NCBI GenBank assembly: GCA_030835135.1 | Contig: JAUQWO010000086.1 | Coordinates: 1-50,172 of the forward strand | From: Bacteroidota bacterium | GTDB taxonomy: Bacteria > Bacteroidota > Ignavibacteria > UBA10030 > UBA6906 | Direction of reading: 5' to 3' | DNA length: 50,172 bases | Part shown: piece after piece, positions 3,561-44,209 of the stretch | How the letters are laid out: each line of letters opens with the position of its first letter | How positions within the stretch are numbered: position 1 is the first letter of the stretch | The notes under the pieces: generated by a model | Database searches by the model: none | Seen by the model: only the letters and a program-made list of their open reading frames with translations | What the model was told of the DNA's origin: nothing | Translations under genes and position numbers: made by a program

Positions 3561-4775
3561 ATGAAAACACGATCCCTGCTCGTTCTTCTCGCATCCGCGG
3601 CCCTCTTCTCGAACGCGCTCATGGCCCAGAAATTCGAGGGGCTCGCCCTCACACCTCCGATGGGATGGAACAGCTGGAACAAATTCGGCTGTAACGTGGA
3701 CGAACACATGATCCGCGGCATTGCCGATGCCATGGCGGGATCCGGCATGAAGGCGGCAGGGTACACCTATCTCGTCATCGACGACTGCTGGCACGGTGGA
3801 CGCGACAGCAACGGGTTTATCTATCCAAACCACGACCGGTTTCCGTCGGGCATGAAGGCGCTCGGAGAGTACATCCACTCGAAGGGGTTGAAGTTCGGTA
3901 TCTACTCCTGCGCCGGGAGCAAGACCTGCGGCGGACATCCGGGGAGCCGTGGACATGAATACCAGGACGCATTGATGTACGCCCAGTGGGGCGTCGACTA
4001 TCTGAAGTACGACTGGTGCAACACCGCCGGATTGAACTCCGTCGGTGCATACACGACCATGCGTGACGCGCTGCATGCGGCAGGAAAGCCGATCGTCTTC
4101 AGCATCTGCGAGTGGGGCGATACACAACCCTGGGGATGGGCGAAGGATATTGGACATCTGTGGCGTACGACGGGCGACATCGCAAACGTTTTCGATGGTT
4201 CCGTTTCGCATGGCACATGGTCGTCGTTGGGCGTGATGACCATCGTTGAAATGCGGAAAGACATCCGGCAGCACTCCGGCCCCGGTCACTGGAACGATCC
4301 AGACATGCTCGAGGTCGGCAATGGCATGACGGTGCATGAGGACCGCGCACATTTTTCGCTCTGGTGCATGATGGCCGCCCCCCTCATCGCGGGCAATGAT
4401 CTGCGCACCATGACGTCCGATACCCGCGCCCTGCTCACGAACACGGACGTGATCGCCATCGATCAGGACTCGCTCGGCATCCAGGGATACCGATATGTGT
4501 CGAACGACAGCATCGAGGTGTGGGTGAAGCCTCTCCGGGGTGCGGATTGGGCCGTATGCTTCCTGAACCGCTCCGTCACGCCGAGACCGGTGAAGTTCGA
4601 CTGGTCGGCGCACATCATCACCGACACCGTCTCGCACCGAACGTTCGACGCACATGCCGGCGAGTACACCGTCCGCGATCTGTGGAAGCGGCAGGATCTC
4701 GGCACAACAGCGACACCCATCACTGCGCGTCTCGCACCCCACGACGTGCTGATGGTACGCCTGACGCGGCAATAG
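3561..4775 (+). CDS. exported GH27 alpha-galactosidase
   Basis: Predicted to hydrolyse terminal alpha-D-galactosides outside the cytoplasm. The open frame extends to 3246, but ATG at 3561 gives a clean signal peptide (MKTRSLLVLLASAALFSNALMAQ) and a 404-aa protein of normal GH27 size. Residues 31-39 read TPPMGWNSW, the family signature. The nucleophile is D151 in YLKYDWC, the acid/base D206 in LWRTTGDI, and the GHWNDPDMLEVG block follows. The C-terminal part carries the usual beta-sandwich (IAIDQDSLGIQG and EVWVKPL blocks). It lies 73 bp upstream of a GH2 enzyme on the same strand, so the two are probably co-transcribed for degrading galactose-containing glycans. Some GH27 members act on N-acetylgalactosamine or arabinopyranose, so the substrate is an inference. 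Confidence 0.93.
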   Translation: MKTRSLLVLLASAALFSNALMAQKFEGLALTPPMGWNSWNKFGCNVDEHMIRGIADAMAGSGMKAAGYTYLVIDDCWHGGRDSNGFIYPNHDRFPSGMKALGEYIHSKGLKFGIYSCAGSKTCGGHPGSRGHEYQDALMYAQWGVDYLKYDWCNTAGLNSVGAYTTMRDALHAAGKPIVFSICEWGDTQPWGWAKDIGHLWRTTGDIANVFDGSVSHGTWSSLGVMTIVEMRKDIRQHSGPGHWNDPDMLEVGNGMTVHEDRAHFSLWCMMAAPLIAGNDLRTMTSDTRALLTNTDVIAIDQDSLGIQGYRYVSNDSIEVWVKPLRGADWAVCFLNRSVTPRPVKFDWSAHIITDTVSHRTFDAHAGEYTVRDLWKRQDLGTTATPITARLAPHDVLMVRLTRQ

Positions 4776-4848
4776 GTACCGCGTTCGCGGATTCTCACAT
4801 CGGCCACGAGCGCTCACCCGGCACCAGATGAAACCCGACGACGAACCT

Positions 4849-8618: not shown

Positions 8619-9815
8619 CTACGGGTCCTTGAGCTCCCACAGTCTTCCATCAATGACGAAGAATGGCGGAAAGGATCCGCCGATGTCGTCAGAAGAATAC
8701 CCGGCAATCGTTGCGACGGTAGTGAACCCGGTTGCCATCGATCCCTGCAGGAGGCAAGTGGTGTTCGCATCGAAGTAATTCCGTCCGTACGCGATCCCCC
8801 CGGGAACGAATGCCGTGATCCACGCATCGGCAGCGAACTCCCCGGCGACAGAAACCTCCGCCTGTTCAGAGACCATGAGAACTCTATGCCTCGCGGGGCG
8901 TGCCGCATCGCCGAGCCCGGTCCTGGGTGTCAGGATGATGTGCGGCGCGGAGAAGAAACCCTTGTCGAATCCAGGGTCGTGACCGCTGAACGCTATCCGC
9001 GGGTGCCTGGGATCGGCGACATCCAGGACCACGGGGAGTGTTTCGCTGTTCCCGAGAAGGATCACGGCATTGCCCAGGATACCGATGCGGCGGACGTAGT
9101 GGTCAGCAACTCGCGCGATCTCCGCGCAAACCCCATCGGTATGGTAGGAAAAGACGCGTACCGGCCCCTTGTGTATCCCATCGCCGACAATGAGGAGGGA
9201 GTCCGTCACGGCGAACGGCCAGAGGTTCCCGGTGATCCTCAGTTGAAAGAGACGGCGCGGCGCGCGGGGATCACGCAGCGAGAAGACGTGGATGCCACGG
9301 CTGTTCGTTGCACACCAGAGAGTGTCGCCAATGAGGCGCATCGCCCTGATGGAGACTGCAGAATCGCCGAGGGGCCTTGCCATGACCTCGGTGAGCGACT
9401 GCCCGGTGTACCCATACACGTGGTACGTACCCCCGTAGTCAACCGTGAGCAGCTCGCCCGGGCCGAAACGGGTCACCGTCCCGGCAATGCTGCCGATCTG
9501 ACTCAACCTTCTGGGTGACTCATACAGCGGATAGATGCCGGTATACAGACGGGGCACCACGTTCGGAAGATAGTTGGTCTTTGCAATGGAGGCCCGAAGC
9601 CCTCCGACGTCGCCTGGCAGCGTTACGATCCCGTCGCTGTTCGTCCGCGCCTGAAAGTGGGTCCAGTCGAATCCGACCTGAACAAGTGCACCTTCGACCG
9701 GGCGGGATTGCCGATCGCGCACAACGATCTGGATCTCCTGGGCATCGATCGGATTGGGGAGTTCGGTGCATCCGGACACAAAGGCCAGGGAAATGGCCAT
9801 CGCAATGGATCGCAT
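8619..9815 (-). CDS. lipoprotein with Ig-like domain and LVIVD-type repeats
   Basis: A 398-aa protein with a type II signal peptide and lipobox VSG-C (Cys16 from ATG 9815), so probably membrane-anchored by lipid. After the Cys comes a carboxypeptidase-regulatory-like Ig domain (IVVRDRQSRPVEGALVQVG). Then come repeats of the form GIHVFSLRDPRAPRRLFQL and PVVLDVADPRHPRIAFS, matching the LVIVD repeat of bacterial surface propeller proteins. A GTG at 9824 preceded by AGGAGG at 5-nt spacing is an alternative start adding three residues; the ATG has GAGGTG six bases upstream. The ligand or role is unknown. It is divergent from the acyl-CoA operon. Confidence 0.8.
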   Translation of the reverse strand: MRSIAMAISLAFVSGCTELPNPIDAQEIQIVVRDRQSRPVEGALVQVGFDWTHFQARTNSDGIVTLPGDVGGLRASIAKTNYLPNVVPRLYTGIYPLYESPRRLSQIGSIAGTVTRFGPGELLTVDYGGTYHVYGYTGQSLTEVMARPLGDSAVSIRAMRLIGDTLWCATNSRGIHVFSLRDPRAPRRLFQLRITGNLWPFAVTDSLLIVGDGIHKGPVRVFSYHTDGVCAEIARVADHYVRRIGILGNAVILLGNSETLPVVLDVADPRHPRIAFSGHDPGFDKGFFSAPHIILTPRTGLGDAARPARHRVLMVSEQAEVSVAGEFAADAWITAFVPGGIAYGRNYFDANTTCLLQGSMATGFTTVATIAGYSSDDIGGSFPPFFVIDGRLWELKDP

Positions 9816-10279
9816 GGTTGACACCTCTGCCTCCTGGTATTGATCTCGCGGGATCGAAGCACCGTGTCACACAGCCGCCCGTGAATCGGACATGCTCCAC
9901 CCGTCCTCACCGGCGCAGAAACGGCTGCAATGCGCGGTCAGGTCAGGGAATACAACTGCCGGTGACGCGTGGTGGCAAGTGTCAGAATGAAGATGCCTCA
10001 GCGCAATGGAAGCATGGATTCAACGCTGTAGCAAGATGTTGCGGAAGCCCCCGGGCTATGCGGAAGTTGACGTGTAGAATCTGCCTGAAGATACACACCC
10101 GCCATACCAATGTCAACACGCCCCCGCTCCGCGGCGGCAACCACACCCGCTCCCAACAGCTGCGCCCGGTGGGCGTACCCTGTGCCCGGGAGTTCACCGC
10201 GCGGAGGGCGTCGTTCCTCCTGCCACTTGCACAAGAGCTGCCTTATTCCTTTATTCGGGAATCACCCAGGGCGACCATT
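9816..10279. other. 464-bp divergent intergenic region upstream of the acyl-CoA operon
   Basis: No gene is recognised. A weak plus-strand promoter candidate is TTGACG at 10067-10072, 17 bp, GATACA at 10090-10095; the -10 matches the consensus at only three positions. The in-frame extension of the downstream hydratase frame into this region has no hydratase-like sequence, which is why I do not include it in that gene. Confidence 0.4.
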
Positions 10280-11050
10280 GTGAGCAGCCACTCCGTTTCG
10301 TTCTCGCAGCACATCGCACACATCGAACTCCACAAGCCTCCGGTCAATGCCCTGGACCACGACTTCGTCCTGGAACTTACCGGCACAGCGCGCCGCCTTG
10401 CAGCGCGCAACGATGTCTGGGTCGTCACCATCACCTCATCCCTCCCCACCTTCTGCGCCGGGGCTGATCTGAAAGAACGGGCGGCAATGCATCCCTCCCG
10501 AGTCGGCTCAACCGTGCGTGCGATCCAGCGGATGGTCAAAGCATGGTTCGCTCTCCCGCAGCCGGTGATCGCCGGCATCCGTGGAGCTGCACTGGGCGGC
10601 GGGTTGGAGTTCGCACTTGCGGCCGACCTGATCGCGGTCGCCGAAGATGCGGTCCTCGGCTTTCCCGAAGTGACCCTCGGCATCATCCCCGCCGCCGGCG
10701 GGACACAGCTCCTCTCCTTCCGCACCTCGCAGAGCGTCGCAACCCGCTGGGTCCTGACAGGACGCCGCTTCTCGGGCCGTGAAGCATACCGCGAAGGCAT
10801 CGCAGACTTCGTCTTTCCCGACGACGGCTTCACTGCCTCGTTCGATGAACTCGTCACCTCCATCGCCGGACACGCGCCACTCGCCCTTCGTCAGGCAAAG
10901 AAGGCGCTGCGGGGCGCACACCGTGCCACACTGGACCGGCGCCTCACCTACGAACGCAACTGCTACACACCTCTCATACGAACGGAGGACCGCGCGGAGG
11001 CCTTGCGTGCGTTCCTCGAGAAGCGGTCCCCGAAGTGGAACGGGAGGTAA
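10280..11050 (+). CDS. enoyl-CoA hydratase/isomerase family protein (possible methylglutaconyl-CoA hydratase)
   Basis: A 256-aa crotonase-fold enzyme that would add water to an enoyl-CoA. Counting from GTG 10280, the oxyanion-hole segments are CAGADLKER (59-67) and RGAALGGGLEF (101-111). The two catalytic glutamates typical of hydratases are both present, E110 and E130 (FPEVTLGIIPAAGGTQ). The open frame reaches back to 9515 but that part has no crotonase character; GTG gives the normal family length. It is first of five tightly spaced genes (24 bp to the next). In the Atu/Liu pathways the hydratase acts on 3-methylglutaconyl-CoA or its isohexenyl analogue; that assignment is inferred from the neighbours. 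Confidence 0.88.
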   Translation: MSSHSVSFSQHIAHIELHKPPVNALDHDFVLELTGTARRLAARNDVWVVTITSSLPTFCAGADLKERAAMHPSRVGSTVRAIQRMVKAWFALPQPVIAGIRGAALGGGLEFALAADLIAVAEDAVLGFPEVTLGIIPAAGGTQLLSFRTSQSVATRWVLTGRRFSGREAYREGIADFVFPDDGFTASFDELVTSIAGHAPLALRQAKKALRGAHRATLDRRLTYERNCYTPLIRTEDRAEALRAFLEKRSPKWNGR

Positions 11051-12214: not shown

Positions 12215-13870
12215 GTGCCCGTCATAGGTTCACCGGTGGTCAGAGATGGTCTGTACACCCGGAATGAAGAAGCCATGCGCACACTCCTTGCACGGCTCAC
12301 CGCGGAAGCCGCCGGCGTACGTGAAGGCGGCGGGCCCGAGGCCGTAGCGAGGCACCGGGCACGGAAGAAGCTCACCGCGCGCGAACGGACCGTCCGGCTT
12401 GTCGATCCGGGAAGTGCGATCCTCGAGATCGGACTCTTCACCGCGCACGGCATGTACGGGGAATTCGGCGGTGCGCCTTCGGCGGGGACGGTCGTGGTAG
12501 TGGGCACGGTCGAGGGCCGGCAGGTCGTCATCGTTGCCAACGATGCCACGGTGAAAGCCGGGGCGTGGTTCCCGATCACCTGCAAGAAGAACCTGCGCGC
12601 GCAGGAGATCGCAATGGAGAACCGTCTGCCGATCATCTACCTGGTCGATTCCGCCGGCGTGTTCCTTCCCCTGCAATCAGAGCTTTTCCCGGACAAGGAA
12701 CACTTCGGACGCATCTTCCGCAACAACGCCATCATCTCCGCGATGGGGATCCCGCAGATCGCCGCGGTGATGGGCCCCTGCGTTGCCGGGGGCGCGTATT
12801 TGCCGGTCATGTGCGACGAAACCTTCATTGTTGAAGGGCATGGCAGCCTGTTCCTCGCCGGCTCCCACCTGGTGAAGGCAGCCATCGGAGAGGAGATCGG
12901 GAATGAGGCTCTCGGTGGTGCCGCCGTCCATTCGGAGATCAGCGGGGTGACGGACTTCCGCATGAAGAGCGACGAAGAGTGTCTCGCCGCCATCAGACGC
13001 ATGGTCGGGCGATTCGGACAGAAGAGCACGGCGCCGTTCGATCGGATCGCACCGGCACCGCCGGCGTTCTCGCCATCGGAACTCTATGGGATCATCCCTG
13101 CGGACCGGACCAAACCATTCGATACGTACCAGGTCCTCGCGCGGCTGCTGGACCGCAGCGAACTGGACGAGTACAAGGCCGGCTACGGAAAGACTCTGAT
13201 CACCGGGTACGCCCGCATCGCCGGATGGAGTGTTGGCATCGTCGCAAACCAGCGGTCGACCGTGAAAACCGCACGCGGTGAGATGCAGGTGGGCGGCGTG
13301 ATCTACTCCGACAGCGCGGATAAGGCCGCACGGTTCATCATGGACTGCAATCAGAAGCGGATACCGCTCGTCTTTTTCCAGGATGTGACAGGGTTCATGG
13401 TCGGCAGCCGCGCCGAACACGGCGGGATCATCAAGGATGGTGCGAAGATGGTGAATGCCGTCGCGAACTCGGTCGTCCCGAAATTCACGTTCGTCATCGG
13501 GAACAGCTATGGCGCCGGCAACTACGCCATGTGCGGCAAAGCGTACGATCCGCGCCTGATCATGGCATGGCCTACCGCGCAGATCGCGGTGATGGGAGGT
13601 CGACAGGCCAGCGAAACGATCCTTGCGATCAAGCTGGGTGCCGCGGAACGGGCCGGCGTCGCATTGACCGATGAGGTCCGCATGTCCACGCTCCGGGAGA
13701 TCCAGAGCCGTTATGAAGCGGAACTCGATCCCCTGTTCGCTGCCGCACGGCTCTGGGTCGATGATATCATTGACCCTCTTGCAACGCGGGATGTCATTGA
13801 CCGGGGGATCACCCTTGCATCCCATAATCCGGATAGTCCGCTGTTCAATCCCGGCATCATGCAGGTATGA
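12215..13870 (+). CDS. biotin-dependent acyl-CoA carboxylase, carboxyltransferase (beta) subunit
   Basis: A 551-aa carboxyltransferase subunit that moves CO2 from carboxybiotin to an acyl-CoA, closest in pattern to methylcrotonoyl/geranoyl-CoA carboxylase beta chains (AtuC/LiuB/MccB). AGGAGG at 12205-12210 sits just before GTG 12215, and residues YTRNEEAMRTLLARL after that start match the family N terminus, so the GTG start is favoured. Key blocks: GGGPEAVARHRARKKLTARER, VDSAGVFLPLQSELFPDKEH, GPCVAGGAYLPVM, FFQDVTGFMVG, GNSYGAGNYAMCGKAYDPR. It is 9 bp after the dehydrogenase stop. The matching biotin carboxylase/BCCP alpha subunit is not in this operon nor anywhere else in the window. Confidence 0.92.
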   Translation: MPVIGSPVVRDGLYTRNEEAMRTLLARLTAEAAGVREGGGPEAVARHRARKKLTARERTVRLVDPGSAILEIGLFTAHGMYGEFGGAPSAGTVVVVGTVEGRQVVIVANDATVKAGAWFPITCKKNLRAQEIAMENRLPIIYLVDSAGVFLPLQSELFPDKEHFGRIFRNNAIISAMGIPQIAAVMGPCVAGGAYLPVMCDETFIVEGHGSLFLAGSHLVKAAIGEEIGNEALGGAAVHSEISGVTDFRMKSDEECLAAIRRMVGRFGQKSTAPFDRIAPAPPAFSPSELYGIIPADRTKPFDTYQVLARLLDRSELDEYKAGYGKTLITGYARIAGWSVGIVANQRSTVKTARGEMQVGGVIYSDSADKAARFIMDCNQKRIPLVFFQDVTGFMVGSRAEHGGIIKDGAKMVNAVANSVVPKFTFVIGNSYGAGNYAMCGKAYDPRLIMAWPTAQIAVMGGRQASETILAIKLGAAERAGVALTDEVRMSTLREIQSRYEAELDPLFAAARLWVDDIIDPLATRDVIDRGITLASHNPDSPLFNPGIMQV

Positions 13871-13877
13871 GCACCAC

Positions 13878-15257
13878 ATGAAAGAGTCGATTCGCATTGC
13901 CAGCGGCCAGGGGTTCTGGGGGGACCTTCCCACCGCACCGGTGGATCAGGTCCGGAAAGGCCCGATCGATTATCTCGTCATGGATTACCTCGCCGAGGTG
14001 ACCATGTCCATCCTGCGGAAGCAGCAGCTCAAGGACCCCTCCCTCGGGTATGCCCGCGACCTCGTGCCGCTGCTTGAAGAGCTGATGCCGGAGATCGTCT
14101 CCTGTGGCATTCGGGTCATCACCAACGGCGGTGGGGTCAACCCATTGGCCTGCCGTGATGCACTCTTCGCCTCCGCTCGGAAACGTGGCGTGCGCGGTCT
14201 CCGCATCGCCGTCGTCCATGGCGATGATATCCTCGGGCGCATCGATGCACTGGGCGCGGCCGGTGCTGCACTCACGAACATGGAGTCCGGCGCACATCTT
14301 GCTTCCGTGCGGGACCGTCTCATCAGTGCCAACGTCTACTTCGGCGCGGCCCCCATCGTTGAAGCGTTGCGCCAGGGCGCGCAGATCGTGATCACCGGAC
14401 GCACCACCGACACAGGCCTGACGCTTGCGCCGATGATCCACGAATTCGGGTGGAGCATGGCGGATCATGACCTCATGGCTGCCGGCACCGTGGCGGGACA
14501 CATCCTCGAGTGCGGCGCGCAGGCCAGCGGCGGGAATTTCCTTGGCGACTGGCGCTCGGTACCCGATCTCGCGCACGTCGGATTCCCCATCGCCGAAGCG
14601 CAACCGGACGGCACATGCATCATCACAAAACACGAAGGCACGGGTGGACTCGTCAGTGAGGCAACGGTGAAGGAGCAACTCGTGTATGAACTCGGGGATC
14701 CGACAACGTACATCACACCCGACTGCATCACGGACTTCACCTCGATCCAACTGGCAGCGGCAGGTCCTGATCGCGTGCGGATCTCCGGCGTGCGCGGCAG
14801 GCCACCCACGGACTTCTACAAGGTGTCCATGGCCTATCACGATGGCTACACGGCGATCGGTATGCTGACCTATGCATGGCCCGATGCGGCGGAGAAGGCC
14901 CGCGCAGCGGACAAGATCCTCCGCACCCGTCTGGCGGACCTTGGATTGGTCTTCGATGAGATCCGGACAGAGCTCGTCGGGCTGGACTCGTCGTTCGGTC
15001 CCCGTGCAGTGCCCAACGAGGAGCAGAATGAGGTGGCGCTGCGCATCGGGGTCAGGAGCAGGGATCGGGATGCGGTGGAGCGATTCGGACGGGAGATCGC
15101 ACCGCTGGTCCTGACCGGCCCGCCGTCGGTCACTGGATTTGCGGGGGGTCGCCCGCGTGCAACCGACGTGATCGCGTACTGGCCGGCCTTGATACCGAAG
15201 CACCTGGTTACGCCGGTCGTTGATACCCGCTCCATGGAAGAGGAGGCACCACGATGA
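13878..15257 (+). CDS. atuA: AtuA-family protein (DUF1446), N-terminal part only
   Basis: A 459-aa protein of the acyclic terpene utilisation AtuA family, genetically linked in pseudomonads to citronellol/geranyl-CoA catabolism but without a settled biochemical activity. ATG 13878 is 7 bp after the carboxyltransferase stop and begins at the family start (IRIASGQGFWGD). Conserved blocks: DYLVMDYLAEVTMSIL, VITNGGGVNP, GDDILGRI, QIVITGRTTDTGLTLAP, GHILECGAQASGGNF. Pseudomonas AtuA is longer because it carries an extra C-terminal domain; here that domain is a separate gene starting at 15254. The frame open back to 13671 overlaps the previous gene and is not used. Confidence 0.9.
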   Translation: MKESIRIASGQGFWGDLPTAPVDQVRKGPIDYLVMDYLAEVTMSILRKQQLKDPSLGYARDLVPLLEELMPEIVSCGIRVITNGGGVNPLACRDALFASARKRGVRGLRIAVVHGDDILGRIDALGAAGAALTNMESGAHLASVRDRLISANVYFGAAPIVEALRQGAQIVITGRTTDTGLTLAPMIHEFGWSMADHDLMAAGTVAGHILECGAQASGGNFLGDWRSVPDLAHVGFPIAEAQPDGTCIITKHEGTGGLVSEATVKEQLVYELGDPTTYITPDCITDFTSIQLAAAGPDRVRISGVRGRPPTDFYKVSMAYHDGYTAIGMLTYAWPDAAEKARAADKILRTRLADLGLVFDEIRTELVGLDSSFGPRAVPNEEQNEVALRIGVRSRDRDAVERFGREIAPLVLTGPPSVTGFAGGRPRATDVIAYWPALIPKHLVTPVVDTRSMEEEAPR

Positions 15258-31889: not shown

Positions 31890-34800
31890 TTAGCGGACCA
31901 GCAACAACCTGCGTGTCTCGGTGGTCGTTCCTGCCTGCAGGCGGTAGAAGTACATCCCGCTCGGCAGATGCTCGGCATTGAAGCGGATCTCATGATATCC
32001 CGCCTGCTGTTCGCCGTTCACCAGCACTGCCACTTCGACGCCCAGCATGTTGTACACACGCATCTGCACCGGCGTCTTTGCGGGCAGACTATACCGGATC
32101 GTCGTGGACGGATTGAACGGATTCGGATAATTCTGATCGAGCGTCACCGTGGTCGGCAGCGTCCGGGTCTCCGCAACATTCGTCGCGGAGATGCGGACCT
32201 TCCAGGTTCCGCTGGGGGAGCTCCATCCGCCGGCATTCCCCGCCCGCACCCGCCACCAGTACGATTGGGCGTTGGTCAATCCGGACATGGTCCTGGCGGT
32301 ATCGGTGAGCGACGAGTCGACGATGCGCCCCGTCGTGAACAGAGAATCCGTCGCGATCTCGAACCAGTAGCGCGTCACGCCGGCCGCGCCCCTGGACCAG
32401 ACAAAGTGCTGCGTGGTGGCAGCGTTCGATGTCCCGTTCGGGGGCAGCAGCAGGGTCGGTGCGGACAGGACGACCGGTGTCGTGACCGTGAGCGATGCGC
32501 TGTTGGTCTGCATTGTGCCGACGGGATTCGTGATCACACAGCGGTACTGCGCGCCGTTGTCACCGATCCCCACCGGAGGGGTCACGTACCGCGGACCATC
32601 GGCGCCGGGGATGTTCACGGTATTCTTCTGCCACTGGTAGGTCAGCGGTGGCGTGCCGCTCACGACGGCAGTGAACACCGCGGTATCGCCGACCACGACG
32701 GACGCTTCCGCCGGATGCCCCGTCACTGCGAGCGGAGCCACACTCGTGACCCGCGACAGCGACACGTCGTCGATGGAGAACACGTCGCCGGCCGAGTCAT
32801 ACGGCGCGAGATAGAACATCATGCGCGCATCGGTCGCCACGCCGCTGAAGCCCGTCGCCGTGAACGTCACCGCGTGATCTTTCCACGTCGTGTCGAGGTT
32901 GAAGACCTGGCCCGAGACGCCGTACGACGTGAAGGGCGTGGCGTGCTTCTGGATGCTGACGGACACGTCATGGCCGGATGTGCTGGTAGCGCGGAAGTAC
33001 AGTTTGTACTCCGCTCCGGCTTCGAGCGTCACACCGATCTGATACAACTGCACATTCCCGCCTTCCGTGGCGATCGCGATCCGTGCGGCATGGGGATGCT
33101 GCGGTCCCGCCGCCGCGGTCGTGAAGGTGCCGCTGCCATTGGTGAAGAACGCCCACGACGCCGTCCCCTGCTCAAAGCCTGCGTTCGCAAGGATGGAGAC
33201 GGAGCCTGTGGTGACCCGCAACCTGGCCTCGGCGCTGGTGACGCTGTCGAGGTTGTTCTTCACGACGCACTGGTAGACCGCACCGCTGTCGCCCAGGGTC
33301 GTTGCCGGGGTCTGATAGACGGAGTCGATCGCACCGTTGATCGGCGCGCCGTTCTTCTTCCATTGGAAGGAGATCGGCGGAGCACCCTGCACGCGCACGG
33401 TGAAGATCGCGGGCTGGCCTACTCCGACGAGCTGGTCGATCGGTTGGAATGTGATCGTCGGCGCCGCGGAGCTCAGCACGATCAGCCGTGCGGCAGCGCT
33501 CGGCGTGTCGCCCCCGCCATTGCTGACGATGCAGCGGAACAACGCGCCGCTGTCCGACTTGCTGACGGGCGGCGTCGTGTATGACGTCTCCGTCGCACCG
33601 TCGATGTCCACGCTGTTCTTCTGCCACTTGTAGGTCAGCGGTGCGGTTCCGGATGCCTGCACACTGAAGGTCGCCGTCGCACCCACGATCACCGTCTGGT
33701 CGGTGGGTTCCGTGTCGATCACCGGCGAGGTCGTCCCGCTTCCCACCGTCAAGGTCGCACGATTGCTCGTGGCGGTCCCGTAATCGTTCGTGACCACGCA
33801 CCGGAACGTCGCGCCATTGTCAGCAGGCCCCGTTGCAGGTGTCGTGTAGCTGGAGCCGTTCGCGCCATCGATATCGGTATCATTCTTCTGCCACTGGTAG
33901 TGCAGCGGGGCGGTACCGCTGGCGCTCACGGAGAACGTGGCAGTGGCGCCGACAGCGACACTGCGGTTCGCGGGGTGACTGCTGATGCTCGGTCCGTAGT
34001 TCCCCGCACTGCCGCCATACCGGACGATCAGTCCGGGACCCGGCCACAGGATCTCGATCCCATGGTGGAGGATGTTCGAGGAGAAGAAGGTGATGGTGTT
34101 CGTGCCCGACAGGAGTTCGCCGGTGGGGAATGTCCGGATGTCGAAGGAGTAGGCATGGTTCCCGCCGTAATCGCCGTCGGTCCATCCGTTGAATCGACGG
34201 TAATTGTAATCGCCCGGCTCCCGCGCACCATCGATCCCATTCCACGTACGCATCATCCCGACCACCTCCGTGGCCTGGGAGACATCATCCGATACGCTGT
34301 AATGGAGGTTGACCTCATCGAGATCCCCGCGCGCCCACGCGCGTTCGGGGACGTCCAGAGGCTTGTAGAGGCGCACATAACTCCCCGAGCGCTGGAGCGT
34401 CAGGCCGGTCACTTCGGGTGACACATACCACACGCCATTGCCATTGCGGATGCGGGCGATGAGCTTGATGCTCCCCGGGGCCTGGTCCGGAACATAGCGC
34501 GTATCCCATGTGGTCTGCCAACCGCCGCCGGTCACCGTGCCGACATGGTTCTTGATCGTCGGTTCCGACTCGCCACCAAGCGGCGGGGCGTAGTCGTGAT
34601 GGTATTCCTGCCACACGCCATCGCCGTCGGTGTCATACCCGTCATAGTACGCCAGGAAATCGACCCGGTCGGTCCCTCCACTCACGCTGGCGGAGATCAT
34701 CGGGTTCTCTCCGAACGTCCCGCTCTGGGATGGCGAGGTGATGCTGCCGGTGGAATGTGTCTTGCCACCGTCATAGTACACGCGCAGGATGATGCTGTAC

Positions 34801-35336
34801 CAGCCGAATTGTCCCCAACCGAATCCGTAGGGCGGAGCCTGGCCGCTATTCGTCCCCTGGAATGTGTTCGTGCCGGAATGAAGGTCGGATAACGGCACCG
34901 GGATGGTGAGGTCCAGCTGGGTGATATAATTGTAGCCCTCGTGGCCATCCGGAATGCCGTTGCCGCTGCCGAGTTCCGGGATGTCGATCCAGCCGTTGCC
35001 GTTGAACCGGATCTGCTTCCCTGTCGTCCCGACGTGACCGCCCCAGATGTTGATCACTGCCTCCGCGCGGATAGCGCCGGAGAGGTCATCCACGCCAAGG
35101 TCCAGGGTGGGGTTCGGCAGGAACGGTGCCGCCTGAGGATAGACACCCAGGTCGATGTTCGGGTCGGTGACGCGCCAGTCGTCGCCGCCCATCGTGCGCA
35201 TGAATTCCTTGTACACATCGCCGGGCTGCGGTGACATCAGATACTGTGCTGATGCAACGAGCGGAACCATGGCGATGAACACGAGAAAAAGGAATGCGCG
35301 CTGCACGAATCGGGGTGCAGGGTGCAATGAGGTCAT
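31890..35336 (-). CDS. T9SS-exported protein with Ig-like repeats and a carbohydrate-binding-like module
   Basis: 1148 aa from ATG 35336, with GGAGA upstream (TTG 35348 is also in frame). Signal peptide with FLFLVFIAMVPLVASAQ. Residues about 40-450 form an unassigned region that includes DTDGDGVW. Four Ig domains of one kind follow, each with a variant of GTAPLTYKWQKN...SGALFRCIVSN (YQWQKN, YKWQKN, FQWKKN, YQWQKN). A CBM4/9-like jelly roll (NAGFEQGTASWAFF ... FSIDDVSL) sits between Ig domains 3 and 4. An FnIII domain (SYWWRVRAGNAGGWSSP) and a T9SS sorting tail (QNYPNPFNPSTTIRYSLP ... RLLLVR) end the protein. Likely a surface-attached glycan-binding or adhesive protein. Confidence 0.9.
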   Translation of the reverse strand: MTSLHPAPRFVQRAFLFLVFIAMVPLVASAQYLMSPQPGDVYKEFMRTMGGDDWRVTDPNIDLGVYPQAAPFLPNPTLDLGVDDLSGAIRAEAVINIWGGHVGTTGKQIRFNGNGWIDIPELGSGNGIPDGHEGYNYITQLDLTIPVPLSDLHSGTNTFQGTNSGQAPPYGFGWGQFGWYSIILRVYYDGGKTHSTGSITSPSQSGTFGENPMISASVSGGTDRVDFLAYYDGYDTDGDGVWQEYHHDYAPPLGGESEPTIKNHVGTVTGGGWQTTWDTRYVPDQAPGSIKLIARIRNGNGVWYVSPEVTGLTLQRSGSYVRLYKPLDVPERAWARGDLDEVNLHYSVSDDVSQATEVVGMMRTWNGIDGAREPGDYNYRRFNGWTDGDYGGNHAYSFDIRTFPTGELLSGTNTITFFSSNILHHGIEILWPGPGLIVRYGGSAGNYGPSISSHPANRSVAVGATATFSVSASGTAPLHYQWQKNDTDIDGANGSSYTTPATGPADNGATFRCVVTNDYGTATSNRATLTVGSGTTSPVIDTEPTDQTVIVGATATFSVQASGTAPLTYKWQKNSVDIDGATETSYTTPPVSKSDSGALFRCIVSNGGGDTPSAAARLIVLSSAAPTITFQPIDQLVGVGQPAIFTVRVQGAPPISFQWKKNGAPINGAIDSVYQTPATTLGDSGAVYQCVVKNNLDSVTSAEARLRVTTGSVSILANAGFEQGTASWAFFTNGSGTFTTAAAGPQHPHAARIAIATEGGNVQLYQIGVTLEAGAEYKLYFRATSTSGHDVSVSIQKHATPFTSYGVSGQVFNLDTTWKDHAVTFTATGFSGVATDARMMFYLAPYDSAGDVFSIDDVSLSRVTSVAPLAVTGHPAEASVVVGDTAVFTAVVSGTPPLTYQWQKNTVNIPGADGPRYVTPPVGIGDNGAQYRCVITNPVGTMQTNSASLTVTTPVVLSAPTLLLPPNGTSNAATTQHFVWSRGAAGVTRYWFEIATDSLFTTGRIVDSSLTDTARTMSGLTNAQSYWWRVRAGNAGGWSSPSGTWKVRISATNVAETRTLPTTVTLDQNYPNPFNPSTTIRYSLPAKTPVQMRVYNMLGVEVAVLVNGEQQAGYHEIRFNAEHLPSGMYFYRLQAGTTTETRRLLLVR

Positions 35337-36630: not shown

Positions 36631-38712
36631 CTACCGGGCCAGGACCATCAGCTTCGACAAGGTGGTCGGCCCTGCGGTGAGCCGGTACACATAGCTGCCC
36701 GAAGCGACCGCCCTGCCCATGTCGTCCCTGCCATCCCACTCCACGAGGTATTCACCCCGGGTCTTGATCTCCGCGATCAGCGTGCGCACCTTGCGCCCCA
36801 GCATATCATAGACCACCAGCGTGACGAATGCTGGCGCACTCCCGCCAACGGAGTAGCGGATCGTCGTCGAGGGATTGAACGGGTTCGGGAAGTTCTGGGC
36901 GAGCGAGAACCCGACAGCTTGGCCTTCATCGGACGGGATCCCCGTGGAGCCCGAGTTGGTGGGCTCGATCACCAGAAAAGCGGTGTATGGCGTCAGGACG
37001 CTGTACGTGATACTGAGCGCGATCACCTGGTCCACGAGTTCTTTCTGCTCCCCGACCTGTCTGATGAGGTCCAGGACGCTCTCGATCTTGCGTGCTCCCC
37101 AGTACCGCGCCACCGCACGCAAGGCCGAACCGGTGTCGCCGAAGGCAACGGTCTCCTCGTACCCGCGCATCGTGCCGCCGGCGGTCCCCGTCATCCTCAC
37201 CGTCGAGGGTCCGTCGGTCAGATACCTGCCGGTCACGAGCAGCTGGTCGCCCGCAAAGACATCCGGCAGCGGCACGGGGTGCACGTCGAACGCACCGGTG
37301 CCGCCGAAATTGAACGCCAGCGACCGGAGTGCGGGAAGGAAGAGCCTCCGGTACAATTCCTTCATCGTGGCATACAGACTGTCGTCCGCTGCGACCGTGG
37401 TGACGAACCCCCCGTGCTGACGCGCGAGAGTCGTCAGGAGAGGTGTCGCCCCCGGATCGCCCACCGTGACCGGATAGAGATGCGCATGCGATGTGTTCAC
37501 GCGCTGCGCGAGGGCGATGAGAGAATCCGCGTTCGTCTGTCCCCAGCTCGGCGTGCCATCGGTGAGGAACACCACCGCGGCATGGTCACCGTCGGTGTAC
37601 GGCATCGAGAGCGAACGCTGCAGGGCCGCTTCGAAGTTCGTCAACCCCAGCGCCGTGAGCGTCTCGATGAATGCGCGTGCGGAATCCTTTTGCAGAGCCG
37701 TCGCGGGCACCAGCGAGTTCCGGAACTGCACTGCGCCCGTACTGAAGGCCACGATATTGAACCGGTCGTTCTCCGTCATGAAGTCCACGAAGCTCCGCAA
37801 CGCCTCCTTCGCCTGCTCGATGCGCGTGCCTTCCATGCTCGACGAGACATCCACAACGAACGTGATCTCCCGGTTGGTCGTCGAATCGGAATAGAGCGTA
37901 TCCGGCACGGCGCTCCAGAGAATGAACCACGGGGGGGTCGCCGATACCGAATCGCGCCATGTGCGGGCCAGCATGCGCGCGGAGCCCCGATCGAGCGAGA
38001 ACTGGACCTTGAAGTCCCTGGAGAACGAGACGTTCTCAAGTCCGTATTCGATCGTGTACCGCTTGTCCGTGAGTTTGGTCACCACCACAGCGGTCGGAGT
38101 ATGGTCCACGGACGTCGTAGCGCCGGTGATCGGGAACTGCGATTGCATATCGACGACCACGCTCGTCTGCTCGATGGGCGCGGAGGTATAGTCCGTCATG
38201 TCCATCGGGAAGACGTACTGGATGCTCCCCTGCTTGTACGTCAGTGGCTGGGAGTACTGGATCTCGATCCGGCGCGTCCCCTTCGGGTCGAACGGAAAGA
38301 TCCTCAGCTTGAAGAGGTTCGTCCCGAGCTGTTCCAGGATGGCAGGATCGGCGATGCGATTGACGATCTCCTGGTACTTCACGATCGCGTCTTCCCGCTT
38401 CTTCACCACATACGGGACGCGCTGGCCGTTGATCCACAGATAGAGTTCGTGGACCTGGGCACCGTCGGGGAGCTTGAACACATAGAATCCCTCCAGACGC
38501 AGGGTGCCGTCGTTCGTGAACTCCTGATCGACATGCGTCACGGCGAGCTGGTCGTAGATCTGCACCGTCGCACGCATCGTTTTGATGCGGAGGTTGTAGA
38601 CCGTGGCGGACGAACTGTTGGGCAGGCGCGCGTACACGCGCCCGATGCTCCAGGCATCCCGGGACGCACAGAGCATGAGCACGGCGAACGCGAACATGAA
38701 GAATCGTTTCAT
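36631..38712 (-). CDS. T9SS-exported VIT/von Willebrand A protein (third gene of the vWA operon)
   Basis: 693 aa. Signal peptide MKRFFMFAFAVLMLCASRDAW; ATG 38712 has GGGGGAAG upstream. Residues about 35-195 form a VIT (inter-alpha-trypsin-like) domain (TMRATVQIYDQLAVTHVDQEF). The vWA domain starts at about 283 with an intact metal site: DVSSS (D288, S290, S292), a Thr in LGLTNFEAAL, and the Asp of FLTDGTPSWG. The C-terminal sorting domain reads QNFPNPFNPSTTIRYS and ends in a typical Ig-like tail. vWA domains usually bind protein or polysaccharide partners through a divalent cation. It begins 16 bp after the preceding vWA gene, so it is in the same transcript. Confidence 0.9.
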   Translation of the reverse strand: MKRFFMFAFAVLMLCASRDAWSIGRVYARLPNSSSATVYNLRIKTMRATVQIYDQLAVTHVDQEFTNDGTLRLEGFYVFKLPDGAQVHELYLWINGQRVPYVVKKREDAIVKYQEIVNRIADPAILEQLGTNLFKLRIFPFDPKGTRRIEIQYSQPLTYKQGSIQYVFPMDMTDYTSAPIEQTSVVVDMQSQFPITGATTSVDHTPTAVVVTKLTDKRYTIEYGLENVSFSRDFKVQFSLDRGSARMLARTWRDSVSATPPWFILWSAVPDTLYSDSTTNREITFVVDVSSSMEGTRIEQAKEALRSFVDFMTENDRFNIVAFSTGAVQFRNSLVPATALQKDSARAFIETLTALGLTNFEAALQRSLSMPYTDGDHAAVVFLTDGTPSWGQTNADSLIALAQRVNTSHAHLYPVTVGDPGATPLLTTLARQHGGFVTTVAADDSLYATMKELYRRLFLPALRSLAFNFGGTGAFDVHPVPLPDVFAGDQLLVTGRYLTDGPSTVRMTGTAGGTMRGYEETVAFGDTGSALRAVARYWGARKIESVLDLIRQVGEQKELVDQVIALSITYSVLTPYTAFLVIEPTNSGSTGIPSDEGQAVGFSLAQNFPNPFNPSTTIRYSVGGSAPAFVTLVVYDMLGRKVRTLIAEIKTRGEYLVEWDGRDDMGRAVASGSYVYRLTAGPTTLSKLMVLAR

Positions 38713-38728
38713 GACTTCCCCCTTCTGG

Positions 38729-41020
38729 TTATCGTACAAGGATCATCGACCGGGTATCGACCACCGCACCCGCCTGCAACCGGCAGATGTACATGCCGGC
38801 CGCGGCATCGGCACCAGAGGATGTTGTGCCGTCCCACGACGCATGGTAGACGCCACGGGCACGCACCTCGCGTGCGATGGTATGCACTTCTCTGCCAAGC
38901 ACATCATAGATGGTAAGAGTAACCTGTACCGGTCCCGCGGCAGCGATCTCGAAGGCGATCACCGTCGATGGGTTGAACGGATTCGGATAGTTCGGCAGCA
39001 GGCGCGTTGCGTGCGGAAGGCCTGCCCCCTCCGCCGTGACGGGATCGGAAAGGATCCGGTCCCCGCTCAGGGTCGTGACCTCGAGCCGGTACCACGCGTG
39101 ACGCGCACCATCGGATTCGTCCTCCAGCACCATCGCACCGCCCGGGTCTGCCGCAAGCGGCGCGTAGGTGCCATCGCATTCCTCCGCACGCAGCACGCGC
39201 ACCGACCGCACATGGGCCGTGTTGCGGATGCTCCAATGGAGCCGGACACCGCCGGCCGTGACCTCTGCGCCGAATGCCGTCACCGCAACCGCGGTCTCGT
39301 CGATGCCCGATACCGGCTGGGACTTGTCCGCCACGTAGGCGGTATACATGCAGCGGATACCATAGGCGAGACTGATCCTGATCAGTTCCTGCTTGAGGGA
39401 GTCCGTCACGCCCGACACCAGGATGCGCCGCTCCATCTGATCCATCTTCTCCTTCGCCCAGAGGCTCTCGACGAAATTCGCATCGGTCGAGTCGGACGGC
39501 ATTTGCAGCATGGCCGAATACGCCACCGGCCCGTCCACCGATTGCCCACCCACCGAAAGGGCCGTGCTCCCGGGATCCTTGTACTTGCCGGTCAGGAAGA
39601 ATCGGGAACCGGCGTACATCGCGCGCAGGTCCCTCGGATACAGTTCGAACGCATTGGTGCCCATCTCCAGTGCCGTCTCTTTCATGATGGGCGAACTGAC
39701 CTGATCGAAGAGCCAGCGGACCTCCGCGAGCACCGGGTCGGTCGGCTTCAGGATGATGGGGAAGCCATAGTTCTGGTACGCCATGATCTCCAACCGCGCC
39801 GTTGCCGGGGCCGTGCTGATCGCCACAGGGAAGATCGGCACCCTGGCGGGATTCGCGAGGACGATGTGGTCCGGGGTGAAGATCGATGACCCTCCCGTGA
39901 AGACCATCAGCACCTGGCATGTGCTGTCCGCGGGGAACGACTGCAGGACGCTCTCGATGCACGTCTGCGCATTGGACATCCCCGACGCCGTCGCCCCGAT
40001 GAGAAACGTCTTCGCGGAATCGCGCGCACCCGCTGTGGCCGGGACCGATGCCGGGCGGAATCGGGTGAGACCGGTATTGAAGAGGATCACGTTGAACCTG
40101 TCCTTCGCCTGAAGCCGGCCGAGGCAATCCAGCACCGCGTCGCGCGCGAGCTGGAACGGCGCGCCTGCGGCCACGGCCGACTTATCCAGGAGGAAGACAA
40201 TGGTCTTCGGCAACGTTGCCGATGAATCGGGGACCGCCCCGGTCTTCAGCATCATCACGAAGTGTCCGCCGCGCGAGGCTGTGCGCGACGCGAAAAGTTC
40301 ATGCCCCAGTGCTGTCGATTGGGCGGTGTAGCTGAACTCCAGGTCCCGCGTCAGATACGTCTTCGATACCATCGCGCTGACGGTGGCGTGGCGCGCATCG
40401 CTCTGCGTAGAGATCCCGCCAGGGATCCCGCTCAGCGAGAATCCCCCGATGCTGTCCGTTGCATTGATATGGAACGTCACCGAGAGTTCATCGAGCGGCG
40501 ATGTCAGGAACGCATCCGTCGCCAGCGGATAGGCGTAGAGGATACGCCCTCCGTCATAGCGGCACAGGGAGATGTACTTCAGCACCACGCGCTGGTTCAT
40601 GCCGGGACTGATGTTCGTCATGAGCACACGGATCGCATTCGGACCGAGATACCCAGTCAGGAGTGCGTCCACGCCGCCCTCTCCCGTGCCGGGATTCGGC
40701 GCCTGCTCCTTCACCCGCAGCGGAGCTTTGTACAGCGTATCGTTCGACCAGAACAGGAATTCCGTGGCGCGGGCACCGGCCGGCAGCGGGAAGGAGTACA
40801 CTGCATCCGTCGGCAGATGCCATTCGTTCACGAAGTCCTGGGTCACCGTCGTGACCGCGATCTGTCCGTGGAACGTCACATCGATCGAGGTCATGCGATG
40901 ACGGAGAAAATCCTTGGGATAACCCTTTGCCTGGGGACGCATGACGCCGTCCGCGTATGCCGCGGCCGCGCCGGCCACAACGGCAATGACAATGACGAGA
41001 ACCAGAGTGCGTGTGCGCAT
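38729..41020 (-). CDS. T9SS-exported VIT/vWA-like protein with degenerate metal site (second gene of the operon)
   Basis: 763 aa from ATG 41020 (AAGGGGG upstream); the frame to 41224 only overlaps the preceding gene. Signal peptide MRTRTLVLVIVIAVVAGAAAAYA. VIT-like domain about 40-200 (TSIDVTFHGQIAVTTVTQDFV). The vWA-like domain begins TIVFLLDKSAV at about 273: the MIDAS DxSxS is changed to DKSAV (D279, S281, V283) and the later Asp is Gly in MVFTGGSS, so normal cation binding is unlikely. An FnIII-like segment and the sorting motif PNYPNPFNPSTVIAFE follow. Ten bp separate it from the upstream gene. Confidence 0.88.
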   Translation of the reverse strand: MRTRTLVLVIVIAVVAGAAAAYADGVMRPQAKGYPKDFLRHRMTSIDVTFHGQIAVTTVTQDFVNEWHLPTDAVYSFPLPAGARATEFLFWSNDTLYKAPLRVKEQAPNPGTGEGGVDALLTGYLGPNAIRVLMTNISPGMNQRVVLKYISLCRYDGGRILYAYPLATDAFLTSPLDELSVTFHINATDSIGGFSLSGIPGGISTQSDARHATVSAMVSKTYLTRDLEFSYTAQSTALGHELFASRTASRGGHFVMMLKTGAVPDSSATLPKTIVFLLDKSAVAAGAPFQLARDAVLDCLGRLQAKDRFNVILFNTGLTRFRPASVPATAGARDSAKTFLIGATASGMSNAQTCIESVLQSFPADSTCQVLMVFTGGSSIFTPDHIVLANPARVPIFPVAISTAPATARLEIMAYQNYGFPIILKPTDPVLAEVRWLFDQVSSPIMKETALEMGTNAFELYPRDLRAMYAGSRFFLTGKYKDPGSTALSVGGQSVDGPVAYSAMLQMPSDSTDANFVESLWAKEKMDQMERRILVSGVTDSLKQELIRISLAYGIRCMYTAYVADKSQPVSGIDETAVAVTAFGAEVTAGGVRLHWSIRNTAHVRSVRVLRAEECDGTYAPLAADPGGAMVLEDESDGARHAWYRLEVTTLSGDRILSDPVTAEGAGLPHATRLLPNYPNPFNPSTVIAFEIAAAGPVQVTLTIYDVLGREVHTIAREVRARGVYHASWDGTTSSGADAAAGMYICRLQAGAVVDTRSMILVR

Positions 41021-41030
41021 GGCCGCCCCC

Positions 41031-43412
41031 TTATCGTACGTGAAGGATCTTGAGAACGGCGGCCCCGAGGCGATCGCCGGACGACGAGGTGAATTGCACA
41101 CGCACGACATACACACCGGAGGCAACGTCATGCCCGCGAACGTCACGCGCGTCCCAGACGACATCGCGCATGCCCTCACCCGGCGGTAGCTGCATCCGTT
41201 GGACCTCGCGGCCGAGACAGTCATAGATCACCACCTCTGCCGCGGTGAGTCCGGGCCCGGAGAACCGGATCGTCGTGCTCGGGTTGAAGGGATTCGGGAA
41301 ATTCATCAACCCGACCGCAACGCCGGCGCCCGGGGGGCCGCCATAGGTGGCCGACGCACTTCCCCCCCTCCCTGCGTAGCGCACGACGATGGTGAGCCCA
41401 TGCTGGGCAGCACCGGTCACCGGAGCGGTGTAGGTCACGACCATCCTGGTGCTGGACTTTGAAAGCCCGATGTCCACGAGGATGTCCAGATACTGCCCTA
41501 GGTAGTCGTAGTATTTCCCACCGGTGGGCAGGGCGATCGGATTGTACCAGTCGGTCTGCCACTCCCGGGCACCGACGGCATAGACCGTGATGTTCTTCTC
41601 GAGCAACCGCGTCAGCACCTGGTCCCGTGTCCTCGGCGTCGCCCAATCCGATGCGTGGTACCGTTCATCGGTGATCCAGACGATCACGTGCCGGGCATTG
41701 GGATCCCAGGGCATCGTGCACGTCGTATCCAGTGCGTCGAGCGAATTCTCAGGGGCATCATCACCGCCGTGGGCATACTGCGCACTGACGTAACTCTTGA
41801 ACGTCCCTGCATCCGTGGTGAACGGATAGATAGTCTCTACCGCATCGAGGAACGTCACGAGTCCGAACCGGTATGCGATGCCGCGCGACGTCATGGAATC
41901 GGCGAACGCGAGAATGCTGTTCTTGACCTTGTCGATCGCTCCTCCCATACTGCCTGTCACATCGAGGACGAACATGATGTCCGTGCTCGTGGCCCCGCCC
42001 GATGTGTCCCGGACGATGGAGGTCGCCGGCACGGAGAACCCCTCGTCGGTGATCATGAGGTTCTTCGGCGCGAGCATGGTGACATATTGCCCGGACGCTT
42101 CCCGCTTGACCGTGACGAAGGCGCGCACCACCGGGAACGCCGCCGTCACGAGCGAGTCGATCGAGACGACAAGTCCGGTATCTGTCACCGGGGTCGCCGG
42201 GATCAGGAACGAGCGCACGACGGAGTCGGCGGCCCCTCCCTGTTCGCGCACGGCCGCGATAATGCGAACAAGGGTCTCCTGATACATCTCTTCCATGATC
42301 GCTGACGTGCCGCTGTACGACGTGGACGTGCCGGGGAAGGTGACACTTCGTGACGTGGTGTCGAAGGTGATCTCCGGCCCCGCCGCGAATGACAGCGTGC
42401 CGGTCTTCGTCGTGCCGGAAAGATTGGTCACCGTCACCGTCGTCCGGACCTTCGCCGGAAACATGACGCCATCGGTGATCTCGCTGTGGTCCGGTATATC
42501 CCAGCGCAGGAACAGGCCGGAGCCGAACTCACTGGGAGCCTGCCGTATTCTGATCGAGCGGGTCAATGCAGCGCCGGGCAGAACGGATGCCGCCCCCCAG
42601 GACGCAAAAAGGTCGAGGTCATAGAGCGTGCGCACCGACGCGACGGGACGCACGGGTCCATCCAGATCGGCCCGGTCCGTCCAGTTCGCGACAAGGACGG
42701 TGTCGGGGGACGCGTCGGGGAATTCGAGGGCCATCGACAAGCCGGACGGGATCGTGCTGCGCTCCCTGATGATGAACGCACCGGTCCCCGGGAAGGTGAT
42801 CACCGTATCATTCAGGATGGGTGCTGCATTGAACGAGAGAACGCCGTCGCCCCTGACACCGAGTCCGGGATCGAACGCAAACCCCGCCCCGAAATGGTGT
42901 GCGACCGCATCCAGGTTCCGGAGTTCCGAGCGGATATCACAGACGGTGCCATTCACGCTGAGTGCGTACGTCAGGGTGAGTTGTGCCACCCCCGGCATCA
43001 CATACGACAGCGCGACACTATCGCCGCCACCAGCAACGCGTTCGCTGTCAGCCGAGAAGAACGCGAGGGGCTTCATCCACGCCCCATCGACGCAGATCAC
43101 GGGATACGATGTCCGCGCGAACGGATGGCCGAAGGTGATACCGCACCGGTCGTCCAGCGCACCTGTGGTCGTCCCACCGGTGGTGCCGATCGTGAAGTAC
43201 CCTCCGCTCATGACCGCGACTTCGCCCACCAGGCGCGTCACTTTGCCGTACCATCCCGAGCTGCCGTACGCCGCTGCGGGTACGGCATCCGCGCCGGAGG
43301 CCGGCATCCGCTCCTGATGGTCGTAGCGCGCCTTGTCCGGACCGCCGGCGATCGCCACGGTGGAAAACAGAGCAACGAGGAATACGAAGAGGAATACCGG
43401 TCGGAGATTCAT
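41031..43412 (-). CDS. T9SS-exported von Willebrand A protein (first gene of the vWA operon)
   Basis: 793 aa from ATG 43412; GGAGG lies 9 nt upstream and a GTG immediately before the ATG is also possible. Signal peptide MNLRPVFLFVFLVALFSTVAIA. Residues about 50-300 form a beta-rich region I cannot assign, 315-470 look like Ig-type sandwiches, and the vWA domain begins at about 477 with an intact metal site (DVTGS: D484, T486, S488; later WITDERYH). The C-terminal sorting domain begins MNFPNPFNPSTTIRFS. No VIT domain is evident, unlike the next two genes. Probably a cell-surface or secreted binding protein that acts with its operon partners. Confidence 0.88.
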   Translation of the reverse strand: MNLRPVFLFVFLVALFSTVAIAGGPDKARYDHQERMPASGADAVPAAAYGSSGWYGKVTRLVGEVAVMSGGYFTIGTTGGTTTGALDDRCGITFGHPFARTSYPVICVDGAWMKPLAFFSADSERVAGGGDSVALSYVMPGVAQLTLTYALSVNGTVCDIRSELRNLDAVAHHFGAGFAFDPGLGVRGDGVLSFNAAPILNDTVITFPGTGAFIIRERSTIPSGLSMALEFPDASPDTVLVANWTDRADLDGPVRPVASVRTLYDLDLFASWGAASVLPGAALTRSIRIRQAPSEFGSGLFLRWDIPDHSEITDGVMFPAKVRTTVTVTNLSGTTKTGTLSFAAGPEITFDTTSRSVTFPGTSTSYSGTSAIMEEMYQETLVRIIAAVREQGGAADSVVRSFLIPATPVTDTGLVVSIDSLVTAAFPVVRAFVTVKREASGQYVTMLAPKNLMITDEGFSVPATSIVRDTSGGATSTDIMFVLDVTGSMGGAIDKVKNSILAFADSMTSRGIAYRFGLVTFLDAVETIYPFTTDAGTFKSYVSAQYAHGGDDAPENSLDALDTTCTMPWDPNARHVIVWITDERYHASDWATPRTRDQVLTRLLEKNITVYAVGAREWQTDWYNPIALPTGGKYYDYLGQYLDILVDIGLSKSSTRMVVTYTAPVTGAAQHGLTIVVRYAGRGGSASATYGGPPGAGVAVGLMNFPNPFNPSTTIRFSGPGLTAAEVVIYDCLGREVQRMQLPPGEGMRDVVWDARDVRGHDVASGVYVVRVQFTSSSGDRLGAAVLKILHVR

Positions 43413-43537: not shown

Positions 43538-43565
43538 ACAGTAGAACACAGCGTACTATTGTAAA
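43538..43565 (-). promoter_or_regulatory. candidate promoter of the vWA operon
   Basis: Minus strand: TTTACA, 16 bp, TACTGT, with a predicted leader of about 119 nt to ATG 43412. Confidence 0.4.
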
Positions 43566-43672
43566 GATAGGGAGGGAATTCGTGAAACGCAAATGGCCTC
43601 GTGGCAGGTCGGTCCCAGGCCGGTCAGATCCGCGATCGGCACGTCAGGGGGATGCAACTCAGTGACCGGTCG

Positions 43673-44209
43673 TCACCCTTCAGGTGTTGCGCAATCCGGA
43701 CATTTCCTGGCTGCGACCATCGTCTCCGAGATCCGCGCAACGTATTCCTGCACGGTCTCCCATTTCGTGTCCGCGTGTTGAATGCGGCGGCACTCGGGAC
43801 AGACCGACACCAGGCCGCGTAGTTCGGCCACTTCGGTATGCAGGGCAAGCATGCGCTCGGCAACGCGCAGGCGCGCGTTCAACGATTCGAAGTCGAACGG
43901 TTTGGTGATGAAATCATCCGCGCCGGCGTTCATGCCTTCCAGAAAACTCCCCTTCCCCCCCAGCGCGGTCAGAATGATCACGTACGGATACACGGGTCTG
44001 TGGTCGGCGCGGATCATGCGTGTGAGCTCGAGTCCGTCGATGAACGGCATCATCCAGTCCGTGATGACCACAGCGGGGTGCTCGGCGCGATACATCTCCC
44101 ATCCTTCACGCCCGTCGTTCGCCGCGATGACATCGTACTTCATCGATTGCAGTTTCGTCATCAGGACGAGTTTCGAGACTGCATCATCTTCCGCTATGAG
44201 TATCTTCAT
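43673..44209 (-). CDS. orphan response regulator with C-terminal Cys4 (zinc-ribbon-like) tail
   Basis: 178 aa. The CheY-like receiver spans 1-120 with acidic pair E7/D8/D9, phospho-acceptor D51 in VVITDWMMP, T81 and K103 (ITKPFDF), all conserved. After a helix, the tail has C137-P-E-C140 and C170-P-D-C173, a pattern recurring in receiver proteins with a short zinc-ribbon-like output module of unknown activity. ATG 44209 has AAGGAA upstream and a TTGAAG-17-TATATA promoter; the frame to 44260 runs into that promoter. No histidine kinase is in the window. It is divergent from the transporter run and followed by the vWA operon on the same strand. Confidence 0.9.
   Translation of the reverse strand: MKILIAEDDAVSKLVLMTKLQSMKYDVIAANDGREGWEMYRAEHPAVVITDWMMPFIDGLELTRMIRADHRPVYPYVIILTALGGKGSFLEGMNAGADDFITKPFDFESLNARLRVAERMLALHTEVAELRGLVSVCPECRRIQHADTKWETVQEYVARISETMVAARKCPDCATPEG

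Follow-up and report, generated by a model that had tools for sequence, protein, structure and literature searches.

Proteins that join a VIT domain to a vWA domain are annotated in many bacterial genomes, and the closest described systems come from two sides. In animals, this is the arrangement of the inter-alpha-inhibitor heavy chains. Human heavy chain 1 (HC1) dimerises via its metal site (MIDAS) with Mg or Mn, which a D298A mutant does not, and this MIDAS-dependent self-association has been proposed to cross-link hyaluronan; its binding of vitronectin, fibronectin and TGF-beta LAPs does not depend on the MIDAS (PMC7170535). In bacteria, a VIT-vWA surface protein serves as the target of a marine proteobacterial sortase (family TIGR03788). 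For the group considered here, the literature we searched (VIT with sortase; T9SS with vWA and operon), in which subscription papers were mostly outside our reach, held neither a tested function for VIT-vWA proteins nor a description of the gene set presented below.

The locus lies in a stretch of 50,172 nucleotides (hereafter the window) that constitutes an entire contig of a 4.9 Mb genome. The original prediction had placed three consecutive, closely spaced genes at 36631-43412, and both its coordinates and its gaps proved exact to the base: C, B and A follow one another 5′ to 3′ on the minus strand, with 10 bp between C and B and 16 bp between B and A (Table 1). It had further given each product a signal peptide, a vWA domain and a T9SS tail, and two of the three a VIT domain, all of which is borne out by Pfam, by the NCBIfam tail model TIGR04183 and by the hydrophobic N-termini of A, B and C. 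The VIT domain (PF08487) scores 84.4 bits in A and 50.1 bits in B, accompanied by VWA_3 at 65.7 and 29.5 bits, respectively, the latter narrowly exceeding the cut-off of 27. C matches VWA (50.1) and, above cut-off, Integrin_beta (PF00362, 30.7); the Pfam scan finds no VIT domain in it and leaves its N-terminal ~400 residues without a match. The VIT domains of A and B are the only two in the whole genome. A recent foreign origin of the region was considered and rejected, its GC content of 62-63% being equal to that of the window.

Table 1. The three genes, nearby sequence elements and further features of the window.
Feature	Position	Strand	Details
Gene C	41031..43412	-	ATG 43412, stop 41031; 793 aa; predicted signal peptide, ~400-aa beta-rich N-terminal part, integrin-beta-type vWA (MIDAS: DVTGS; E within DDAPENSLDAL; D within ITDERYH), predicted T9SS type A tail
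Gene B	38729..41020	-	ATG 41020, stop 38729; 763 aa; predicted signal peptide, VIT carrying an NPGTGEGG loop specific to B, MIDAS-degenerate vWA, helical region and, after it, the invariant Cys of IRCxYTAY, predicted T9SS type A tail
Gene A	36631..38712	-	ATG 38712, stop 36631; 693 aa; predicted signal peptide, VIT and a vWA whose MIDAS is intact (DVSSS, T, TDG), predicted T9SS type A tail
Candidate Bacteroidota-type promoter, TTTG-N20-TATCTTTA	43562..43593	-	about 150 bp upstream of C
Receiver-only response regulator	43673..44209	-	same strand, ends 260 bp upstream of C; a neighbour, membership not implied
T9SS-tailed protein	31890-35336	-	four Ig domains and CBM4_9; shortly downstream of the trio, beyond its lipoprotein-like neighbour
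Melibiase-type alpha-galactosidase, then GH2 protein	3246-7734	+	
Enoyl-CoA hydratase-type ORF	9515-11050	+	
AtuA (acyclic terpene utilisation) protein	13671-15257	+	

The T9SS, already named as the export route in the original prediction, is also supported by the genome at large. TIGR04183 (T9SS type A tail) scores a modest 29.6, 28.8 and 27.6 bits for the trio, above its cut-off of 23, with the corresponding Pfam model PF18962 staying below its own cut-off for A, B and C. SprA and PorU are encoded in the same genome, both above cut-off, and SprA is present in 22 of 22 genomes with a C-B pair. Apart from the signal peptide, no transmembrane-like stretch is found in any of the three proteins, and LPxTG is absent from all of them. 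With a signal peptide and a sorting domain above cut-off in each case, A, B and C are thus predicted T9SS type A cargo. Tens of further T9SS tails are encoded elsewhere in this genome, scattered over many contigs.

Comparison across genomes separates a fixed pair from a looser third member. After removal of duplicates, every one of the 33 B loci, which come from Bacteroidota, Ignavibacteriota, KSB1 and Calditrichota, has C as the gene immediately upstream on the same strand, with only the tail of C being visible ahead of B at one of them (L058). The gap between the two genes has a median of 15 bp and is 30 bp or shorter in 25 of the 29 cases in which it could be measured. Used as bait, B retrieved 23 loci from named genomes, mostly Bacteroidota, Ignavibacteriota, KSB1 and Calditrichota, the weakest two or three of which are merely VIT-vWA relatives; of 391 genomes in the class, 18 encode a true B, judged from the gap in scores. 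The same association emerges with C as an independent bait: full-length C (E values around 1e-235 or better, vs 1e-61 or weaker for relatives that share the vWA alone) is encoded in 9 of 395 genomes, and B adjoins it in all nine.

A, on the other hand, adjoins C-B at only 16 of the 33 B loci, in the order A-C-B at ten and C-B-A at six, although at some loci its absence is uncertain since the contigs end too early. C-B is therefore a fixed pair with A as a looser member, and the linkage of three genes expected at the outset holds fully for C and B and by half for A. As A is missing from about half of the loci and its position varies, any complex formed by these proteins would not need it. Close to the genome studied here, VIT domains are rare altogether, with any match in 9 of 60 relatives; among these 60, the trio recurs twice, in one of the two congeners and in a single genome from another family of the order. 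In the other congener (G001), A adjoins a different VIT-vWA gene and there is no strong match to C. At L161, L162, L164, L121, L122 and L050, an A-like VIT-vWA gene stands in tandem with a second VIT-vWA gene from a different clade, without C-B; the MIDAS is intact in both.

One way to account for such a layout is that the three products are independent T9SS adhesins, co-expressed from a common promoter and sharing an export route, each of which acts alone, with B having switched to metal-independent binding. The MIDAS-independent ligands of HC1 provide a precedent for this, and A-like proteins with an intact MIDAS are encoded in many genomes that lack C-B. More generally, genes for T9SS cargo can cluster without their products forming a complex. 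Yet the strict adjacency of C and B across a large phylogenetic distance, and the observation that full-length C was never found without B, speak against independent action; given the tens of T9SS tails on many other contigs, this adjacency exceeds what shared export would demand. We consider it unlikely, albeit not strongly so, that the proteins are independent adhesins.

A second distinction between the three proteins concerns their metal sites. In a joint alignment, all five MIDAS residues are retained in 15 of 15 A and in 22 of 22 other VIT-vWA relatives vs none of 33 B. The vWA domain of B in the window is correspondingly MIDAS-degenerate, reading DKSAV, having lost the T and carrying TGG in place of TDG. 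C retains the D, S/T, S, E, D set in 32 of the 32 copies that cover this part, and has Glu where Thr stands in A. A Glu of this type serves the beta-I MIDAS of integrins. Judged by residues, A would thus possess a functional heavy-chain MIDAS and B would not. The ‘cation-dependent’ surface complex of the original prediction consequently stays possible for A and C, which keep the residues, and fails for B, no copy of which has a complete MIDAS.

Despite this loss, the predicted architecture of B is that of a heavy chain. Its model (pLDDT 83.2, 21 sequences) aligns with human inter-alpha-inhibitor heavy chain 1 (6fpy_B) over 500 residues at a Z score of 27.6, an rmsd of 3.5 and 16% identity, covering model residues 16-544. 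What sets B apart from A is visible at several levels. In a quick tree, B forms a single clade with a support of 100; A intermingles with proteins from genomes without C-B. The NPGTGEGG loop in the VIT domain of B replaces a helical stretch of A and is nearly invariant in sequence, yet it is among the least confident regions of the model, a combination that is common for binding loops and proves nothing. The Cys within IRCxYTAY (YGIRCMYTAY in the B of the window) is found in 33 of 33 B and is the sole Cys in two of them. An interchain disulphide between B and C was also considered; it was rejected because even the most conserved Cys column in C is occupied in only 25 of 30 sequences and its losses are not mirrored in B.

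The likeness of B to HC1 raises the prospect that the proteins are extracellular matrix cross-linkers, i.e., heavy-chain-like chains sitting on the cells' own polysaccharide and stabilising a capsule or biofilm matrix, similar to the HC-hyaluronan of animals. The cross-linking of hyaluronan proposed for self-associating HC1 would fit such a role. However, DPHF, the C-terminal motif for chondroitin sulphate linkage of the heavy chains, is absent from A, B and C, whose C-terminus is a T9SS tail instead, and no polysaccharide gene recurs among the neighbours. A role in matrix cross-linking of this kind thus appears distinctly unlikely.

C differs from A and B in the type of its vWA. Its model (pLDDT 81.6, pTM 0.56) yielded a fold search in which the listed matches were taken up by the vWA domain; the best 17 of the hits for this domain are integrin beta or Pactolus I domains with Z scores of about 20.8-22.4, and other vWA folds score about 2 lower. 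Judging by sequence and model together, the vWA domain of C is of the integrin-beta type rather than of the heavy-chain type. The heavy-chain arrangement suggested at first for two of the proteins stands for A and B, which share the VIT-vWA order, the B model matching a heavy chain over about 500 residues. An RGD in C was examined as well and is taken as chance, the consensus of the alignment at this place being xxGDG. Proteins of ~450-560 aa that are kin to the vWA of C alone are widespread in other families of the class (L135-L155), and at L159 and L160 such relatives adjoin two more same-strand genes encoding 465-490 and 576-604 aa.

Taken together, we slightly favour the view that the trio is one expression unit for a T9SS-exported surface assembly in which C and B would form the core and A an auxiliary component. 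The three genes would be co-transcribed as a single unit. C, with its metal-competent vWA domain of the integrin-beta type, would likely bind, in a cation-dependent manner, an acidic group of either a ligand or a partner subunit. B, which combines the entire heavy-chain fold with a lost metal site, would most likely be a structural or docking partner that does not bind through a MIDAS, as suggested by the loss of the MIDAS alongside the retention of the NPGTGEGG loop and the invariant Cys. A, which resembles a heavy chain and has kept its MIDAS, may join this core at about half of the loci as an optional second chain with a MIDAS. A heteromer would lead one to expect a stable metal-dead partner next to a metal-competent protein, from which we infer that C and B may form such a heteromer; by analogy, the MIDAS-mediated dimerisation of HC1, combined with the split of MIDAS residues between the proteins, points to a surface assembly built on a C-B core. 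Physical association, the division of labour between the subunits and a role in adhesion or matrix cross-linking are, like co-transcription, inferred at this stage.

Regarding expression, TTTG-N20-TATCTTTA has a single match in the window against 0.10 expected; we applied this Bacteroidota-type pattern after the site had been seen, so that the site near C is only a lead. Scanning for promoters and terminators under sigma-70 rules returned nothing useful (3 sites vs 1.5 expected), and a hairpin 3′ of A was no better than shuffled sequences (z -0.39).

At four divergent loci (L061, L065, L066 and L117), C-B-A closes a longer same-strand run. Three of these runs contain a sigma-54 activator with GAF (assigned by Pfam in L065 and L066, and through a homologous fragment in L117) and three a Ser/Thr kinase with PEGA (assigned by Pfam in L065 and L117, and as a homologue in L066), and the long runs also encode a Kelch protein with a T9SS tail and an exported protein of ~275 aa with no Pfam match above cut-off. 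Related genes for the kinase, the Kelch protein and a 290-aa protein are found at L163 together with two VIT-vWA genes and without C-B. None of the four genes (sigma-54 activator, kinase, Kelch, ~275-aa protein) is present in the window.

These runs allow for two further readings. The surface chains might be contact-sensing receptors that report attachment to a regulatory system such as the kinase and sigma-54 activator, given that both precede Kelch-C-B-A in divergent lineages and that the L163 set accompanies other VIT-vWA genes. Such neighbours, however, are confined to four C-B loci, the window offers only the receiver-only regulator, and the trio contains no membrane-spanning protein, making contact sensing extremely improbable. 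Alternatively, C-B could be a bacterial integrin-like heteromeric receptor, with C contributing the integrin-beta-type MIDAS, B a metal-free second face and, where encoded, the T9SS-exported Kelch propeller being placed like the propeller of integrin alpha; this, too, we regard as very unlikely.

With a two-gene core found across several phyla, and the MIDAS kept in C and lost in B, the vague guess of an ‘adhesin’ becomes a testable heteromer, and reading C-B as such predicts which subunit needs Mg or Mn. The pair is, in addition, a bacterial example that bears on how integrin-like and heavy-chain-like vWA proteins came about.

How, then, does the trio relate to known systems? The parallel with the marine sortase target drawn in the original prediction is sound insofar as A (9e-73) and B (2.7e-45) clearly match TIGR03788, likewise a VIT-vWA surface protein, but with 245.7 and 155 bits they remain far under the family cut-off of 551.65, carry a T9SS tail instead of the sortase signal and belong to a predicted operon encoding several proteins. 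Bd0875 of Bdellovibrio is a bacterial surface MIDAS adhesin with a tested part in prey invasion; it is a lipoprotein and a single protein, and the accessible part of its description mentions neither VIT nor T9SS (PMC11003981). Sec23/Sec24 and the archaeal ArnA/ArnB illustrate how unlike proteins heterodimerise around vWA folds, and ArnAB and Sec23/24 chains are among the fold matches of B; unlike the trio, they are cytoplasmic and without VIT domain or export signal, and the likeness lies mostly in the vWA and the flanking sandwich.

The closest comparisons remain those with the heavy chains and the integrins. A (1e-33) and B match ITIH4 in sequence, and the VIT, vWA, hybrid and helical parts of the B model are arranged as in ITIH1 (PDB 6fpy), but A and B end in a T9SS tail where the heavy chain has its chondroitin-linked C-terminus, and B is without a MIDAS and encoded beside an integrin-beta-type vWA protein. 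C resembles the beta-I domain of the integrin beta headpiece in its D-x-S/T-x-S, E, D set, its best fold matches and PF00362; it differs in that it is predicted to be T9SS-secreted, its partner is heavy-chain-like rather than a beta-propeller chain, and no PSI or I-EGF modules (Pfam) and no transmembrane segment are recognised in it. C is hence not classed as an integrin, and the trio comprises fold relatives that are members of neither the heavy-chain nor the integrin beta family.
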